From Candidatus Anaerostipes avistercoris (GTDB taxonomy: Bacteria > Bacillota > Clostridia > Lachnospirales > Lachnospiraceae): a stretch of 41,829 bases of DNA. Both the position numbers and the translations under genes were made by a program. Below, piece by piece: positions 2,976 to 38,801 of this stretch (its first letter is position 1; every line of letters starts with the position of its first letter). Under the pieces are notes generated by a model. The model did not search any database and had not been told where the DNA came from. It was given only the letters and a program-made list of their open reading frames with translations. The DNA lies in assembly GCA_019119895.1 (NCBI GenBank), contig DWWD01000021.1:75789-117617 (forward strand), in the 5' to 3' direction.

Positions 2976-3500
2976 ATGAGTGAATACGCAATTGTAGCAC
3001 CGGAAGATTTTGACGAAAGCGTATTTCGTCTGATCGGAAAAGACTGGATGCTGGTCACGGCAAAGAATAAAGAAGGAAAAGTCAATACCATGACAGCGTC
3101 ATGGGGAGGATTCGGAGTCATGTGGGGCAAAAATGTGGCAGTCACTGTACTGAGACCACAGCGCTACACAAAAGAATTCATTGACCAGACAGATTCATTC
3201 ACATTATCATTCTATGACGACGCGTTTAAGAAAGATTTATCTTATCTCGGAAGTGTGTCCGGAAGAGATGAGGATAAGATTTCCAAGACCCGTCTGACAC
3301 CGACAGACGCAAATGGAATTCCTTATTTTGAGGAAGCCAGAGTCGTGCTGATCTGCAAGAAACTGTATTCTCAGCCGATGGATCCGGAAGGATTTACGGA
3401 CGGCGGCCGCGAGCTGGACGGCGAGTGGTATCCGGAAAAAGATTACCATGTACTTTACGCAGCGGAAATTGAACAGATTCTTGTAAGACAGGATGGATAA
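2976..3500 (+). CDS. Flavin reductase family (FMN-binding split barrel) protein
   Basis: A 174-residue soluble protein of the flavoredoxin/flavin-reductase-like FMN-binding split-barrel family. Features typical of the family are the early segment with NTMTASWGGFGVMWGK (residues about 37-52), the following VTVLRPQRYTKEFI stretch, and the SGRDEDKISKT region. Relatives bind FMN and pass electrons from NAD(P)H or other carriers; the partner here is unknown. The ATG at 2976 is preceded by AAGGAGGAG. It lies 29 bases after hisS and is followed by a strong terminator, so it is probably the last gene of the hemZ-hisS unit. Confidence 0.8.
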   Translation: MSEYAIVAPEDFDESVFRLIGKDWMLVTAKNKEGKVNTMTASWGGFGVMWGKNVAVTVLRPQRYTKEFIDQTDSFTLSFYDDAFKKDLSYLGSVSGRDEDKISKTRLTPTDANGIPYFEEARVVLICKKLYSQPMDPEGFTDGGRELDGEWYPEKDYHVLYAAEIEQILVRQDG

Positions 3501-3512
3501 AAGAGAAACAAA

Positions 3513-3553
3513 GCCCTTCCCGGAGTGAAAATCCGGTGAAGGGTTCTTTTTTT
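3513..3553 (+). terminator. Rho-independent terminator after the flavin reductase gene
   Basis: An 11-bp GC-rich stem (left arm GCCCTTCCCGG, right arm CCGG-T-GAAGGGT with one bulged T) closes a short A-rich loop and is followed by a run of seven T. The T run merges with the first TTGAAC repeat of the next gene's control region. Confidence 0.9.
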
Positions 3554-3643
3554 GAACTTTTTCGAAATATAAATTGAACTTTCTTCCGGCCTGTGGTATG
3601 ATGTGCATATTGAACAGAACTTGAAATTGAACTTATATTGAAC
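3552..3643 (+). repeat. Cluster of TTGAAC repeats, candidate operator array
   Basis: Five exact TTGAAC hexamers lie at 3552, 3574, 3610, 3627 and 3638, with a near copy TTGAAA at 3621. All are on the same strand. The copy at 3574 is the promoter -35 box; those at 3610-3643 lie at or just after the expected transcription start. Spacings include 11 bases (3610 to 3621, 3627 to 3638) and 22 bases (3552 to 3574), close to whole helical turns. The downstream gene encodes its own XRE-type DNA-binding domain, so autoregulation through these repeats is a natural inference. It is not shown. Confidence 0.6.
3574..3602 (+). promoter_or_regulatory. Sigma-A-type promoter of the XRE-aminotransferase gene
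   Basis: TTGAAC (3574-3579), a 17-base spacer and TATGAT (3597-3602) form a near-consensus promoter. Transcription should start near 3609, about 58 bases before the ATG, so the last repeats fall in the leader RNA. Confidence 0.8.
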
Positions 3644-3666
3644 ATTTCGGTTTTAGGAGGAAACAA

Positions 3667-5184
3667 ATGTCAAAAGAAGTTTTTGCAGACAGGCTGAAAA
3701 TGGCAATGGCGCGCCAGGGGAAAAAGCAGGTGGACCTGATCCGGGCGGCGGCAGCCCAGGGAGTAAAACTAGGGAAAAGTCATATGAGCCAGTACGTAAG
3801 CGGAAAGACCTTTCCAAGGGAAGATACTCTGTGTTTTCTCGCCAAAAACCTTGGGGTAACGAAAGAGTGGCTGAGCGGGGAAGAAGAGGATGACCGGCAG
3901 GTGCAGAAGACAGAAGAGAGCCGGGAAAGCAGCAGTGAGAGTGAAAATCATATGTTAGGTGGGAAGAAAATGCGTGAATTTAAAAAATCTACAAAATTGA
4001 ACAATGTGTTATATGATGTAAGAGGACCGGTGGTAGATGAGGCGGCAAGAATGGAAGAAGCCGGAACACAGATTTTAAAACTGAATATCGGAAATCCAGC
4101 TCCGTTTGGATTCCAGACTCCGGACGAAGTAATCTATGATATGCGTCGTCAGCTGACGGAGTGTGAGGGATATTCTCCGGCGGAGGGGCTCTTTTCTGCT
4201 CGAAAAGCGATTATGCAGTATGCTCAGCTTAAGAATTTACCAAATGTTACCATGGATGATATTTATACCGGCAACGGGGTCAGCGAGCTGATCAATTTAT
4301 GTATGTCAGCACTGCTGGATAATGGCGATGAGATTCTGATTCCGGCCCCGGATTATCCTCTGTGGACCGCATGCGCGATTCTTGCGGGAGGCAAGGCTGT
4401 ACATTATATATGTGACGAACAGTCAGACTGGTATCCGGACATGGATGATATCAGGAAAAAAATCACAGATCGTACAAAAGCCATCGTTATCATCAATCCG
4501 AATAATCCAACAGGAGCTTTGTATCCGAAAGAAGTGCTGCAGCAAATCGTGGACATTGCAAGAGAGCATCAGCTGATTATTTTTTCCGATGAAATCTATG
4601 ACCGGCTGGTAATGGATGGAGAGGAGCATATTTCCATCGCTTCACTGGCGCCGGATCTGTTTTGTGTGACTTACAGCGGATTATCAAAATCACATATGAT
4701 CGCAGGTTTCCGGATCGGATGGGCAATATTCAGCGGAAATAAGGATATGGCGAAAGATTATATGGAAGGGGTCAGGATGCTTTCCAATATGCGTCTGTGC
4801 TCCAATGTGCCGGCCCAGTCCATCGTACAGACAGCTCTGGGAGGTCATCAGAGCGTGATGGATTATGTTGTGCCGGGAGGAAGGATTTACGAGCAGAGAG
4901 AGTATATCTATAAGGCGCTGACGGACATTCCGGGAATCAGCGCAGTGAAACCGAAAGCGGCATTTTACATTTTTCCGAAAATTGATGTAAAAAGGTTCAA
5001 TCTGAAAGATGATGAGAAATTTGCACTTGACCTTCTGAAAGATAAGAAAATTCTTCTGATCCACGGAGGAGGATTTAACTGGAATCAGCCGGATCATTTC
5101 AGGGTCGTGTATCTTCCGAGAATCGAAGTCCTGAAAGAATCCGTCAGCAAGATCGCTGACTTCTTCAGTTATTATCATCAGTAA
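3667..5184 (+). CDS. XRE-type HTH domain fused to AlaA-like alanine aminotransferase
   Basis: The 505-residue product has two parts. Residues 1-70 are a helix-turn-helix domain of the XRE/Cro type (KKQVDL...KSHMSQYVSGKTFPR), followed by a charged Ser/Glu-rich linker (71-101). Residues 102-505 form a complete fold-type I PLP aminotransferase, closest by eye to E. coli AlaA/AlaT (glutamate-pyruvate aminotransferase): it begins KKSTKLNNVLYDVRGPV, keeps LNIGNPAPFGF, PNNPTGA, and the PLP lysine at residue 341 in SGLSKS. Length from 102 onward matches AlaA (about 405). The fused domain order is like MocR regulators, but those use a GntR winged helix. It starts at 3667 with AGGAGG seven bases upstream. 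It may act as an amino-acid-sensing regulator, an enzyme, or both; catalysis looks intact. Confidence 0.9.
   Translation: MSKEVFADRLKMAMARQGKKQVDLIRAAAAQGVKLGKSHMSQYVSGKTFPREDTLCFLAKNLGVTKEWLSGEEEDDRQVQKTEESRESSSESENHMLGGKKMREFKKSTKLNNVLYDVRGPVVDEAARMEEAGTQILKLNIGNPAPFGFQTPDEVIYDMRRQLTECEGYSPAEGLFSARKAIMQYAQLKNLPNVTMDDIYTGNGVSELINLCMSALLDNGDEILIPAPDYPLWTACAILAGGKAVHYICDEQSDWYPDMDDIRKKITDRTKAIVIINPNNPTGALYPKEVLQQIVDIAREHQLIIFSDEIYDRLVMDGEEHISIASLAPDLFCVTYSGLSKSHMIAGFRIGWAIFSGNKDMAKDYMEGVRMLSNMRLCSNVPAQSIVQTALGGHQSVMDYVVPGGRIYEQREYIYKALTDIPGISAVKPKAAFYIFPKIDVKRFNLKDDEKFALDLLKDKKILLIHGGGFNWNQPDHFRVVYLPRIEVLKESVSKIADFFSYYHQ
3957..3972 (+). promoter_or_regulatory. Internal ribosome binding site and start codon inside the fusion gene
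   Basis: AGGTGGG at 3957-3963 stands six bases before an in-frame ATG at 3970. Translation from there gives 404 residues beginning exactly where AlaA enzymes normally begin. This would yield the aminotransferase without its DNA-binding domain. Alternatively it is a relic of the separate gene that existed before fusion. Confidence 0.55.
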
Positions 5185-5236
5185 ACATGATTTTGCCGGA
5201 ATCTTCCCCTGCCCAATCGATTGCCGTGATTAATAC

Positions 5237-5265
5237 TTTCACTGGGAAAATATTTATGCTATAAT
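5237..5265 (+). promoter_or_regulatory. Extended -10 promoter of aspS
   Basis: TATAAT at 5260-5265 is preceded by TGC, giving an extended -10 element (TGnTATAAT). The -35 region 17 bases upstream (TTTCAC) is poor, as is common with extended -10 promoters. The start point should be near 5272, just before the ribosome binding site of aspS, so there is no room for a T-box leader. Confidence 0.7.
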
Positions 5266-5297
5266 AACTCAGAGTTACGTAAGAAGGAGGAAATATC

Positions 5298-7094
5298 ATG
5301 GCAGAATCAATGTCAGGTTTAGCCAGGACTCACCGATGTACGGAAGTTTCCAGTCAACTGATCGGAAATGAAGTGACCGTTATGGGGTGGGTGCAGAAAA
5401 GAAGAAACTTAGGAAGCCTTATATTTATAGATTTAAGAGACCGCTCAGGACTGCTGCAGCTCGTATTTGATGAAGAGGCTTTGTCACCGGAAGATTACGA
5501 GAAAGCCAACAGTTTAAGAAGCGAATATGTCATCGCAGCCGTAGGAACTGTACAGAAAAGAAGCGCTGCAGTAAATGAGAATTTGAAAACGGGGGATATT
5601 GAGATCAAAGTCCATACGCTGAGAGTACTTTCTGAATCCGATACTCCGCCGTTTCCGATTGACGAGAATCAGACAGTAAAAGATGAGCTTCGTCTTAAAT
5701 ACCGTTATCTGGATCTGCGCAGACCGAATTTGCAGAGAAATTTAAGAATCCGTGACCATGTTACAAGAATCATCCGTAATTTCCTGTCTGATGAGGGATT
5801 TATCGAGATTGAAACACCGATTCTCGGGAAAAGCACGCCGGAAGGAGCCAGGGATTATCTTGTGCCAAGCCGTGTGCATCAGGGAAATTTTTATGGACTG
5901 CCACAGTCACCGCAGCTTTATAAACAGCTCCTTATGTGTTCCGGATTTGACCGTTATTATCAAATCGCAAAATGTTTCCGTGACGAGGACCTGAGGGCGG
6001 ACCGCCAGCCGGAATTTACACAGGCGGATATGGAACTGTCCTTCGTTGATGTGGACGATGTGATTGATATCAACGAGCGCCTGATGCAGAAGGTATTCAA
6101 AGAAGTGCTGGATGTGGATATTCCGCTTCCGATGCAGAGACTCACCTATCAGGAAGCGATGGACCGCTTTGGATCAGACAAGCCGGATACTCGTTTCGGC
6201 ATGGAGCTGGTCAATGTTTCTGAGACCGTAGCCGGATGTGATTTTATGGTATTTAAAGGCGCTCTGGAAAACGGCGGAAGTGTAAGAGGTATCAACGCCA
6301 AAGGTCTGGGTGATCTTGGAAGGAAAAAAATAGACGCTTTCGTAAGTTACGCGAAAGATTTCGGAGCTAAGGGACTGGCCTATATTCAGCTTAAAACAGA
6401 CGAAACCGTCAAATCTTCCTTTGCGAAGTTTATGAAGGAAGAAGAAATGGATGCTCTGATCCGGGCAATGGACGGACAGGCAGGAGACCTGCTTCTGTTT
6501 GCTGCGGATCAGGATAAAGTAGTATTTGACGTCCTGGGCAATTTAAGAATCCATATTGCAAAACAGTATGATATGATCGATGAATCTTTGTTCAACTTCT
6601 TATGGGTAACAGATTTTCCTCTTCTGGAGTGGAGCGAAGAGCAGAACCGCTATACGGCGATGCATCATCCGTTTACAATGCCATTTGAGGAAGATTTGGA
6701 ATTTATCGATACAGATCCGGGAAAAGTACGGGCGAAAGCATATGATATTGTCCTGAACGGAACGGAGCTGGGAGGAGGATCCATTCGTATCCATCAGAAT
6801 GATATCCAGGAAAAGATGTTTGAAGTCCTTGGATTTACAAAAGAAGATGCCTATGAGCGTTTCGGATTCCTTTTGGATGCCTTTAAGTTCGGCGTTCCGC
6901 CGCATGCGGGACTTGCATACGGACTGGACCGTCTGGTTATGTGGCTGACAGGAGAAGAAAGTATCCGTGATGTCATTGCATTTCCGAAAGTAAAAGATGC
7001 TTCGTGTCTTATGACACAGGCGCCGGGCGCTGTCGATGAAATCCAGCTGGATGAACTTGGAATTGAAATATCCACAAGCGGAGAGGAGAATTAA
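5298..7094 (+). CDS. aspS: Aspartyl-tRNA synthetase
   Basis: A 598-residue bacterial-type class II synthetase that charges tRNA-Asp. The N-terminal OB-fold anticodon domain covers about residues 1-105 (VTVMGWVQKRRNLGSLIFIDLRDRSG). The catalytic core shows motif 2 (FRDEDLRADRQPEFTQ), and the GAD insertion specific to bacterial AspRS is present in the middle (about 290-410). Motif 3 is GLAYGLDRLVMWLTG near the end. Full length for the bacterial form. ATG at 5298 with AAGGAGG upstream. It is followed after four bases by the ACT-domain gene. Whether it is strictly Asp-specific or also charges tRNA-Asn cannot be decided here. Confidence 0.97.
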   Translation: MAESMSGLARTHRCTEVSSQLIGNEVTVMGWVQKRRNLGSLIFIDLRDRSGLLQLVFDEEALSPEDYEKANSLRSEYVIAAVGTVQKRSAAVNENLKTGDIEIKVHTLRVLSESDTPPFPIDENQTVKDELRLKYRYLDLRRPNLQRNLRIRDHVTRIIRNFLSDEGFIEIETPILGKSTPEGARDYLVPSRVHQGNFYGLPQSPQLYKQLLMCSGFDRYYQIAKCFRDEDLRADRQPEFTQADMELSFVDVDDVIDINERLMQKVFKEVLDVDIPLPMQRLTYQEAMDRFGSDKPDTRFGMELVNVSETVAGCDFMVFKGALENGGSVRGINAKGLGDLGRKKIDAFVSYAKDFGAKGLAYIQLKTDETVKSSFAKFMKEEEMDALIRAMDGQAGDLLLFAADQDKVVFDVLGNLRIHIAKQYDMIDESLFNFLWVTDFPLLEWSEEQNRYTAMHHPFTMPFEEDLEFIDTDPGKVRAKAYDIVLNGTELGGGSIRIHQNDIQEKMFEVLGFTKEDAYERFGFLLDAFKFGVPPHAGLAYGLDRLVMWLTGEESIRDVIAFPKVKDASCLMTQAPGAVDEIQLDELGIEISTSGEEN

Positions 7095-36090: not shown

Positions 36091-37308
36091 ATGAGGAAAA
36101 TCTATTATCGAAGGATTTTGTTTGTGCTTCTGCTGCTGAATCTTCTGGCCTTCGCCTCGCTGTATGTAAAATACTGCAGAGACCGGCTGCCGTCTTCCAT
36201 TCATATCGAACAGGGCGAAGAGACATGTTTCCAATATGATGTGCCGGTTACCGCGACAATCAATGATCAGACCATAAAGCTGGATCAGCCTTTCGTATTC
36301 AAAGAAGACACCACCGGGCAGTATGAAATGAACGCCAGCCTGTTCGGCAGGATTCCATTAAAAACCATAAAAGTAAGCGTCGTCAAAAGTCAGGAAGTCG
36401 TTCCCAGCGGCAAAGTCGTCGGTATCTATGTGGAAACCGACGGACTCCTGGTACTGGATACCGATACTTTTACCGGGATCGATGGGGCAAACCACGCGCC
36501 CAGCAGCCAGAAACTATATCAGGGTGATTATATTTTGACCGTTAACGGAAAATCCATACCTTCTAAGGCAGATTTCATGAAAACGATCAACGAAAGCAAC
36601 GGAGAGGAAGTGACGCTGAAAGTAAAACGAAATCATAAAGAAATTTCCATTAAAGTCAAACCTGTCATGTCGTCCACAGATCATCAATATAAGATCGGAG
36701 CATGGGTCAGAGACAACACACAGGGAATCGGCACTCTGACCTACACCAGCGGCGAAGACTTCGGGGGACTTGGCCACGGCATCTGTGATATGGATACAGG
36801 AGACTTAATGGAAATCAAAGGCGGGTATCTCATCAGTGCCAATGTGGATACCATCGCAAAGGGAAAATCAGGTTCACCGGGGGAAATTGTTGGCAGTATC
36901 TATTATAAGGAAGAAAATTTAATAGGATCCATTGATAAGAACACAGAAGTCGGCATATACGGAAGCTGTAATCCATCCAGTCAGAAAAAATATAAAATCG
37001 GCTACCGGCAGGACATCAAAGAAGGGAAAGCATACATTATTTCAGACATCAGCGGAGAGTCAAAGCAGTATGAAATCAAAATCCGAAAAGTCAGCCAGGA
37101 CAGTACCAACACAACGAAAGGAATGGAAATCGAGATTACGGATAAAGAACTTCTGAAGTTAACCAATGGCATCGTCCAGGGCATGTCGGGAACGCCCATC
37201 GTTCAAAACGGAAGATTCATAGGCGCCATCACCCATGTCTTTGTCAGTGACCCTTCCAGGGGTTATGGAATTCTGGCAGAAACGATGCTTTATGAAATGG
37301 AAAAATAA
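36091..37308 (+). CDS. spoIVB: SpoIVB serine peptidase
   Basis: A 405-residue forespore protease that triggers pro-sigma-K processing by cleaving SpoIVFA. After a membrane anchor (about 9-27) comes a PDZ domain (residues about 110-195) and an S55 peptidase domain. The triad is visible as His229 in GLGHGICD, Asp351 and Ser366 in GMSGTPIVQNG; the Asp-Ser distance of 15 agrees with the B. subtilis enzyme. ATG at 36091 follows TAGGAGGT. In most spore formers spo0A is next; here it is not. Confidence 0.95.
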   Translation: MRKIYYRRILFVLLLLNLLAFASLYVKYCRDRLPSSIHIEQGEETCFQYDVPVTATINDQTIKLDQPFVFKEDTTGQYEMNASLFGRIPLKTIKVSVVKSQEVVPSGKVVGIYVETDGLLVLDTDTFTGIDGANHAPSSQKLYQGDYILTVNGKSIPSKADFMKTINESNGEEVTLKVKRNHKEISIKVKPVMSSTDHQYKIGAWVRDNTQGIGTLTYTSGEDFGGLGHGICDMDTGDLMEIKGGYLISANVDTIAKGKSGSPGEIVGSIYYKEENLIGSIDKNTEVGIYGSCNPSSQKKYKIGYRQDIKEGKAYIISDISGESKQYEIKIRKVSQDSTNTTKGMEIEITDKELLKLTNGIVQGMSGTPIVQNGRFIGAITHVFVSDPSRGYGILAETMLYEMEK

Positions 37309-37631: not shown

Positions 37632-38801
37632 ATGGCAAGACGAGGAGAAAACATTTACAAGAGAAAAGACGGAAGATGGGAAGCGAGAATTATTTTCGAT
37701 TACACCCCGGAAGGAAAAGCATGCTACCGCTATCTCTATGGGAAGACCTATCAGGAAGCCAGGAATAAGAAAAACAGGATGCTTGCAGAGCTTCAGAATT
37801 CTTCTATGACCCGGACATTTCAGAGGAATTATCTGAAAATCACACTGGATCAGGTCATGGAGGAATGGCTGGAATCCCACAGAGACTCTTTGAAAGAGTC
37901 AACCTACACGACCTATGTATCGCTGTATGAACGGCATTTGAAACCTGATCTTGGAAACTGCCGGATGACGGCACTGACAACAGAGAAAATCGACGCGTAC
38001 CTGAAAGAAAAACTGAAATCCGGCCGTTTGGATCACAGGGGAGGATTATCACCGAAAACGGTAGCTGATATTCGTTCCGTTCTTCTGATGGGACTGAAGT
38101 TCGCACGAAGTAAAAAATATCCTTGTGCTGACAGTGGAGAGATTTTCTATCCATCCATGCATTCACAGGAGATTCAGGTGTTGTCTAAGCTGGAACAGCA
38201 AAAATTGGAAGAAGCCGTGTTTGCTGCTAATAATTCTATATCAGCCGGAATTCTTCTGGCACTTTACAGCGGACTTAGAATCGGTGAAATCTGCGCTCTG
38301 CAGTGGAAAGACATCCGTTTCGAAGAAAAGAATCTGCAGATATCAAAAACAATTATCCGAATTCGTAATCTGGATTCCGATTCAAAACAGAAGACAAAAG
38401 TGATCATAGATCGCCCAAAAACGGATACTTCCATACGTACAATTCCGCTGCCAGAATTTTTGATTGAATATTTAGAAGACTTCTGGAAAGAAGATGACAC
38501 ATATCTTCTGACCGGAACAAAATATTTCATGGAGCCGCGGATTTATTTGAGAAAGTACAAAGAGATTTTAACGGAGGCAGGGCTGGGAGATTATACTTTT
38601 CACTGTCTCAGGCATACTTTTGCTACCAGATGTGTGGAAAACGGTTTTGATGTAAAAGCGCTCAGTGAGATTCTGGGTCATGCAAATGTCAGTACCACGC
38701 TTCAAAGATATGTTCATCCTTCCATGGATTCCAAACGGGAACAGATAGAACGACTGGCATCTGCTTCTATTTGCCGTCAAAATAAGCCGTCAAACGATTA
38801 A
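37632..38801 (+). CDS. Tyrosine site-specific recombinase/integrase
   Basis: A 389-residue integrase. The N-terminal arm-binding domain (GENIYKRKDGRWEARIIFDYTPEGKA) resembles those of conjugative-element integrases, then a core-binding SAM-like domain (LDQVMEEWLESHRDSLKESTYTTYVSLYERHL), and the catalytic domain with Arg216 (SGLRIGE), His324 and Arg327 (HCLRHTF), His350 (LGHANVS) and Tyr360. All catalytic residues are present. ATG at 37632 follows AAGGAGG. No excisionase, relaxase or phage genes are visible near it, so it may be a solitary recombinase acting on the neighbouring polysaccharide locus, or the edge of an element continuing beyond the window. Confidence 0.92.
   Translation: MARRGENIYKRKDGRWEARIIFDYTPEGKACYRYLYGKTYQEARNKKNRMLAELQNSSMTRTFQRNYLKITLDQVMEEWLESHRDSLKESTYTTYVSLYERHLKPDLGNCRMTALTTEKIDAYLKEKLKSGRLDHRGGLSPKTVADIRSVLLMGLKFARSKKYPCADSGEIFYPSMHSQEIQVLSKLEQQKLEEAVFAANNSISAGILLALYSGLRIGEICALQWKDIRFEEKNLQISKTIIRIRNLDSDSKQKTKVIIDRPKTDTSIRTIPLPEFLIEYLEDFWKEDDTYLLTGTKYFMEPRIYLRKYKEILTEAGLGDYTFHCLRHTFATRCVENGFDVKALSEILGHANVSTTLQRYVHPSMDSKREQIERLASASICRQNKPSND

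Follow-up and report, generated by a model that had tools for sequence, protein, structure and literature searches.

The fusion gene and its two domains

The window analysed here, the whole stretch of 41,829 nucleotides, contains at positions 3667–5184 of the forward strand a single open reading frame in which a Cro/CI-type helix-turn-helix (HTH) domain is followed by a complete AlaA-type aminotransferase. The gene encodes 505 amino acids plus a stop codon, relatives of it were found, and the sequence AGGAGG at 3655–3660 can be read as the Shine-Dalgarno (SD) sequence of the full-length start. Three parts can be delineated on the same strand: a phage CI-type HTH domain (residues 1–73; 3667–3885) with the recognition region KLGKSHMSQYVSGK, defined by matches to sequences of known structures and by conservation; a linker (3886–3969), which is hypervariable in both sequence and length in the alignment of fused loci; and the aminotransferase domain (3970–5181), identified from family and PDB matches and from the conservation of its active site. 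The domain pair was found within a single open frame in 116 loci, of which 106 are distinct by their last 400 residues, and such a recurrence means that it did not arise by chance. The preliminary description had proposed a survey of the pair and of its PLP-site residues; with one more distinct fusion contributed by four loci added later, it now comprises 107 distinct fused proteins, in which these residues are kept. Near-identical rows were thinned to 74 for the tree, the internal-SD test, the neighbour comparison and one of the TTGAAC counts, and a protein with a different HTH (L132, see below) was excluded from all fused counts.

On its 3' side the fusion gene is followed by an aspartyl-tRNA-synthetase-like gene (5298–7094; Pfam tRNA-synt_2 and GAD). 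The assignment of an operon function from neighbouring genes was rejected, as within the thinned set of 74 fused loci the frames of at least 150 amino acids were common to at most 2 of 70 upstream and at most 2 of 69 downstream neighbours. A structured leader or riboswitch was likewise rejected after an Rfam scan of 3300–5300, which gave no match at gathering score. Elsewhere in the window, a tyrosine recombinase frame (37632–38801), presumably of the phage type, is located directly after the gene at 36091–37308, which we take to be SpoIVB-like, and the genes downstream are presumably of the exopolysaccharide type.

Residues 7–73 of the fusion protein match the structures of the N-terminal domain of the TP901-1 CI repressor (E about 5e-10), which bears out the XRE/Cro-type assignment made in the preliminary description. 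Pfam HTH_31 and HTH_3 match the HTH as well, both under their curated cut-offs, and no GntR family is present among the Pfam matches of the protein, so that the architecture, as previously suggested, differs from that of MocR. By its sequence, the domain is the one with which phage CI repressors of the TP901-1 type bind DNA. In TP901-1 CI, the Q45A N48A change weakens binding (PMC11149083, in part). The Gln matching CI Q45, located in SQY, is invariant in 110 fused rows (the 107 distinct proteins plus L150, L151 and L153, which duplicate earlier rows), and the second position (N48) is mostly occupied by Ser. The HTH was also detected in 69 records of the phage collection, 57 of which are Streptococcus, Staphylococcus or Lactococcus phages. 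Among the HTH matches there are six records entitled 'Bacteriophage sp.', at least three of which are contigs carrying the HTH-AlaA fusion itself. These three (L232, L233 and L234; MT839381, MT839198 and MT838394) are unverified, unannotated and look bacterial; taken for phage homologues by title, they were rejected as such and excluded from the phage evidence. In L234 (MT838394), the fusion is interrupted by a stop in the linker.

The alignment of residues 101–505 with E. coli AlaA (4cvq) is gapless and runs from end to end (E 1.5e-174), with a score of 585 bits versus 336 bits for the second-best PDB sequence. The top family match was the NCBIfam alanine aminotransferase model (385 bits versus an equivalog cut-off of 534), and since this cut-off was missed, the substrate specificity is one that we infer; the enzyme appears to be an AlaA-type alanine aminotransferase. 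When residues are numbered along the gapless AlaA alignment, K341 is the PLP lysine and R479 the carboxylate arginine. The earlier reading of a complete AlaA-like enzyme with intact signatures could be upheld. In the same manner, 20 active-site positions of AlaA (PMC4094517, in part) were mapped. Eighteen of them never vary among the 110 fused rows, including Tyr15, Arg18, Asn179, Asp207, Lys240 and Arg378 (AlaA numbering), and V205 and L377 (numbering of the window's protein) vary once each. V118 of the window's protein, invariant in the fused rows too, corresponds to Ile17, the one active-site residue of those given in PMC4094517 (in part) that is not kept. The same 20 positions look much alike in 34 unfused rows. 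In the genome from which the window comes, a search for alanine dehydrogenase (TIGR00518), positive in 8 of 14 control genomes, gave no match, and the other aminotransferases are at most 33% identical, i.e. none is a close AlaA paralogue. Taken together with the retained catalytic residues, this indicates that the aminotransferase domain in all likelihood functions as an enzyme.

AlaA is a dimer, the interface of which is shaped by the N-terminal arm, and when a substrate mimic is bound this arm is ordered and folded over the active site (PMC4094517, in part). In the fusion, the HTH is attached to that very arm; moreover, MocR proteins sense via aminotransferase folds and often bind direct repeats (PMC5320631, in part). 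Both points favour a ligand-gated regulator, in which the aminotransferase domain would be mainly a sensor and the substrate or the PLP/PMP state would switch DNA binding; the preliminary description had suggested that alanine, glutamate or pyruvate flux might be sensed in this way. The catalytic residues, which are as in unfused enzymes, and the two genomic absences just described speak against this tentative option, which in our judgement falls somewhat short of an even chance. It is nevertheless compatible with the self-repression discussed below, not opposed to it; that substrate occupancy of the AlaA arm alters DNA binding is speculative.

The TTGAAC array upstream of the fusion gene

The DNA at 3552–3643 had been put forward in the preliminary description for a binding test, and its five copies of TTGAAC (all on the forward strand) make it a likely binding site. 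The first candidate operator copy (3552–3557) ends the T run of a terminator-like sequence, which was recognised by eye at about 3514–3553, 5' of the array, and is absent from the promoter scan. The second candidate copy (3574–3579) coincides with the −35 hexamer of a promoter predicted in that scan and is separated by 17 bp from the putative −10 hexamer TATGAT (3597–3602), assigned solely by its match to the consensus (9/12). The remaining copies, at 3610, 3627 and 3638 (3610–3643), are situated between the −10 hexamer and the ribosome-binding site.

Within the 200 bases 5' of the full-length start, 329 copies of TTGAAC were counted in 100 fused upstream regions, where first-order Markov resampling would give about 14, and none was found in the corresponding 200 bases of 25 unfused alaA genes. 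The number of regions was reduced from 106 to 100 by the omission of L052, L054, L058 and L098, in which no start was recognised, and of two loci with less than 200 bases upstream. At least one copy is present in 97 of the 100 regions (67/70 in the thinned set) and at least three in 78, eight regions contain a single TTGAAC and no GTTCAA, and in L116, L121 and L124 the count is zero; for L116 the start finder, a simple pattern, chose a start that lies too far upstream, and the zero of this locus is possibly too low. TTGAAC or GTTCAA was also found upstream of all four fused loci from outside Lachnospiraceae. One copy forms the −35 hexamer in 87 regions, in 80 of them at exactly 17 bp from the −10 hexamer; copies lie 3' of the −10 hexamer in 74 regions and between the two hexamers in 13. 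The gaps between successive copies peak at 19–21 and 40–43 bp, with lesser peaks at 29–31, 11 and 8 bp, spacings that are mostly as expected for copies lying on one face of the helix. Some fused upstream regions show drifted relatives of the operator such as TAAACTT. Drifted operator-like copies (ATGAACTT, ATAAACTT) occur upstream of L114, L115, L117 and L121, which belong to one part of the tree, and may possibly reflect the co-evolution of HTH and operator.

The scan of viral sequences with the window HTH alone gave 19 matched stretches and no relatives, while the scan with an alignment gave 134 relatives, 80 of which were kept; after 14 repeats or short ones had been dropped, 66 distinct upstream regions were counted. 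The mean number of TTGAAC/GTTCAA per 300 bases 5' of the viral HTH is 4.29 versus 0.32 in shuffles, the remaining viral sequence also having 0.32 per 300 bases, and at least one such motif is present in 65 and at least two in 63 of the 66 regions. In some viral loci, such as L236, the layout is closely similar: two copies of TTGAAC at a distance of 22 bp lie in T-rich sequence and are followed by TATAAT. No AlaA match was found in any of the 80 viral loci carrying this HTH. The OL operator of TP901-1 is GTTCATGAAACGTGAACT (PMC4941734, in part), and its half-site TGAACT, as published there, is the core of the TTGAAC arrays at fused genes. In the fusion gene as in the gene of TP901-1-type CI, an operator-like sequence of the TGAAC(T) type is found in the gene's own control region, although the published OL is an inverted repeat and direct repeats prevail at fused genes. 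The array would accordingly be read as the binding site of the fusion's own HTH, and the capture of HTH and operator-promoter together from a phage seems to be the simplest reading. It might be argued that the arrays are bound by another protein with the HTH as a mere passenger. This appears very improbable, as loci have either both array and HTH or neither, and as the motif is identical to the half-site of the operator used by this HTH family in phage (PMC4941734, in part).

The search for further targets was performed by scoring TTGAAC pairs and strict arrays. Twelve pairs were found in the window's own genome, four at the fusion promoter and eight elsewhere, versus 3 for a control with the reversed pattern, and this excess outside the promoter is what would be expected if the HTH controlled other genes and the self-site were secondary. 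Seven of the eight outside pairs, however, are without the TTGAACTT form at the first copy, and in 22 fused genomes 33 strict arrays were located at the fusion gene (in 16 genomes; none in six) versus only 3 elsewhere, the reversed control giving 8. Twelve genomes with unfused alaA yielded 3 strict-array matches, as did their control (3). At the level of strict arrays a regulon is hence not supported, and we regard its existence as improbable. No target other than the fusion gene's own promoter was seen to recur. Since the strict arrays in these fused genomes are almost confined to the fusion gene, the likely role of the full-length protein is autorepression, and the position of the candidate sites in and behind the promoter points to repression as well.

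A probable second start within the linker

The linker alignment led to the proposal of an enzyme-only start at an internal ATG (M102; 3970–3972, forward strand), preceded by the SD-like sequence AGGTG (3957–3961), which can be read in the window and is of moderate strength there. This ATG sits where unfused alaA genes start, with an SD there. An ATG is present at the enzyme start or within three codons of it in 101 of 106 fused loci; at this place L014, L069, L084 and L093 lack both ATG and GTG, and L082 has GTG. In L126 the ATG is three codons upstream with no visible SD, and L221 has no internal ATG. As the internal ATG is missing in some fused loci, the short form cannot be indispensable.

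With all sequences treated as independent, i.e. with relatedness ignored, the mean pairing energy at the internal ATG was −10.2 versus −4.5 at 1196 other in-frame ATGs, the true starts giving −11.1 (25 unfused) and −10.0 (102 full-length). The anti-SD string used was an assumed one, the 16S end not having been found in this assembly. Synonymous recodings of the internal sites, under the same treatment, had a mean of −8.1, and 94 of 101 sites lay below their own recoding mean, the average rank of the internal SD among the recodings being only 0.24. The SD core was present at the junction in 56 of 70 thinned loci, while of 770 control windows taken further upstream 65 contained it. Where the junction has Gly-Gly, its first Gly was encoded by GGA in 41 of 47 cases, compared with 746 of 1994 for Gly codons in general (Fisher 4e-12, again ignoring relatedness). 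Four loci (L024, L029, L033 and L048) retain the SD core although it encodes other amino acids there and is read in a different frame. The internal SD of the window itself (−7.8) is weaker than the mean of its own synonymous recodings (−9.6) and, taken alone, would not convince.

The internal SD and ATG may, of course, be relics of the fusion event or a requirement of a Gly-rich linker, in which case no second product would be made: unfused enzymes begin at the same place with an SD, 4 of 106 fused loci lack ATG and GTG, and the SD of the window is moderate. We find this explanation unlikely, because the rest of the linker is hypervariable, the SD core outlasts changes of amino acids and frame in the four loci named above, codon choice favours GGA, 94 of 101 sites pair better than their mean recoding, and losses of the internal start are few on the deep tree. 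As an ATG and a ribosome-binding site are kept within a hypervariable linker, a second, enzyme-only product is probably made from the internal start.

Distribution, proposed circuit and related systems

Among 298 Lachnospiraceae genomes, 84 gave a match at E 1e-120 or better. In 29 of these the alignment starts from the N-terminus, and three more loci (L128, L130 and L131) were found to be fused on reading, which gives 32 of 84 genomes with the fusion; the rest comprises one genome with a different XRE domain (L132) and 51 with only the unfused enzyme, part of which were read and the others judged from the alignment row. One of the 32 (G062) harbours both a fused locus (L107) with a TTGAAC array and an unfused paralogue (L133) without an array. 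The scan of genome contigs revealed 531 relatives, and all 80 that were kept span the query from residues 1–5 to 503–505. According to record titles, the fused relatives occur in gut Lachnospiraceae, including Blautia and Mediterraneibacter. In the order sample (294 genomes, 44 with a match), none of 10 outside Lachnospiraceae was fused; in the class sample (293 genomes, 29 with a match), four outside Lachnospiraceae were fused; in the phylum sample (299 genomes, 22 with a match), the sole fused one was the window's own.

In a quick tree of 109 rows, rooted at the midpoint and with many weak forks, all 74 fused rows fall into one clade of 79 (SH-aLRT 96), inside which five rows are unfused. 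The label fused/unfused changes six times on this tree (at least four by starred branches), a pattern most readily accounted for by a single gain and some five losses of the HTH fusion, and from its distribution the fusion is to be regarded as an old, conserved Lachnospiraceae gene. The preliminary description had named the lack of the HTH in close relatives as an observation that would speak against it. Such relatives do exist, namely the five unfused rows, none of which has TTGAAC in the 300 bases 5' of the start; they read best as secondary losses. L132 (genome G245), located elsewhere in the tree, combines an unrelated XRE HTH (Pfam HTH_3, E 4e-12) with an AlaA 66% identical to that of the window; this fusion, with its different HTH, appears to have arisen independently. 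In L181 (G520), AlaA follows another N-terminal part in one frame of 704 codons; this part presumably represents a CPBP-type membrane protease.

We consider it probable that the gene encodes a self-repressing alanine aminotransferase, which uses a captured phage repressor domain with its operator-promoter and has an enzyme-only second product. In an ancestor within Clostridia, a TP901-1-type repressor HTH with its operator-promoter would have landed ahead of alaA in the same reading frame. The full-length protein would be an AlaA dimer with two HTH domains carried on the N-terminal arms via the variable linker and facing same-direction repeats, so that the helically phased TTGAAC copies could be bound. 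Since such copies overlap with the −35 box and in most cases occur downstream of the −10 hexamer as well, their occupation would lower the transcription of the gene when the enzyme is abundant. With the ancestral alaA ribosome-binding site and ATG kept in the linker, the same mRNA may yield free AlaA, which would provide the enzyme activity and might also enter mixed dimers, in which HTH domains would be fewer. Binding, the direction of repression, the dimer form, translation of the second product and the joint capture of HTH and operator are all what we infer from sequence comparison. That a domesticated phage immunity switch operates here as a one-gene feedback circuit, with the two products and their mixed dimers setting the strength of repression, is a further step which could equally well prove right or wrong.

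If the self-repression model is true, the source of an aminotransferase-linked regulator was here a phage repressor instead of GntR, and a phage repressor-operator module has been repurposed for the feedback control of central nitrogen metabolism. The fusion gene also offers a directly testable two-product gene, and should phage antirepressors such as Mor still be bound by its HTH, the alanine metabolism of the host could be unlocked by an incoming phage. The arrangement had been called uncharacterised in the preliminary description, in line with which no paper on an XRE-aminotransferase fusion was found in the open-access literature searched, subscription papers lying outside that search.

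Compared with known systems, the fusion shares with TP901-1 CI the sequence type of the HTH and a closely similar recognition region. TP901-1 CI, however, continues into a CI oligomerisation domain and the fusion into AlaA, C-terminal CI oligomerisation domains being absent from the fusion protein. E. coli AlaA, in turn, is a chain of 431 residues without any part matching the HTH of the fusion. The MocR regulators (GabR, PdxR) resemble the fusion in joining an N-terminal HTH to a fold-type I aminotransferase, and their operators are commonly direct repeats (PMC5320631, in part), as are the TTGAAC copies at the fusion gene. They differ in that MocR proteins have a GntR winged helix, whereas the fusion has a Cro/CI HTH and an enzyme that is AlaA by sequence; furthermore, unlike MocR, the fusion has an internal start, and no target besides its own gene was seen to recur. 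Among the trigger enzymes, BirA and PutA are examples of metabolic enzymes that have their own DNA-binding domain and control related genes. In comparison with them, the fusion contains a different enzyme, a phage-type HTH with a phage-type operator and a probable enzyme-only product. It is therefore predicted to be a variant of aminotransferase-linked regulators or trigger enzymes, and not a MocR.
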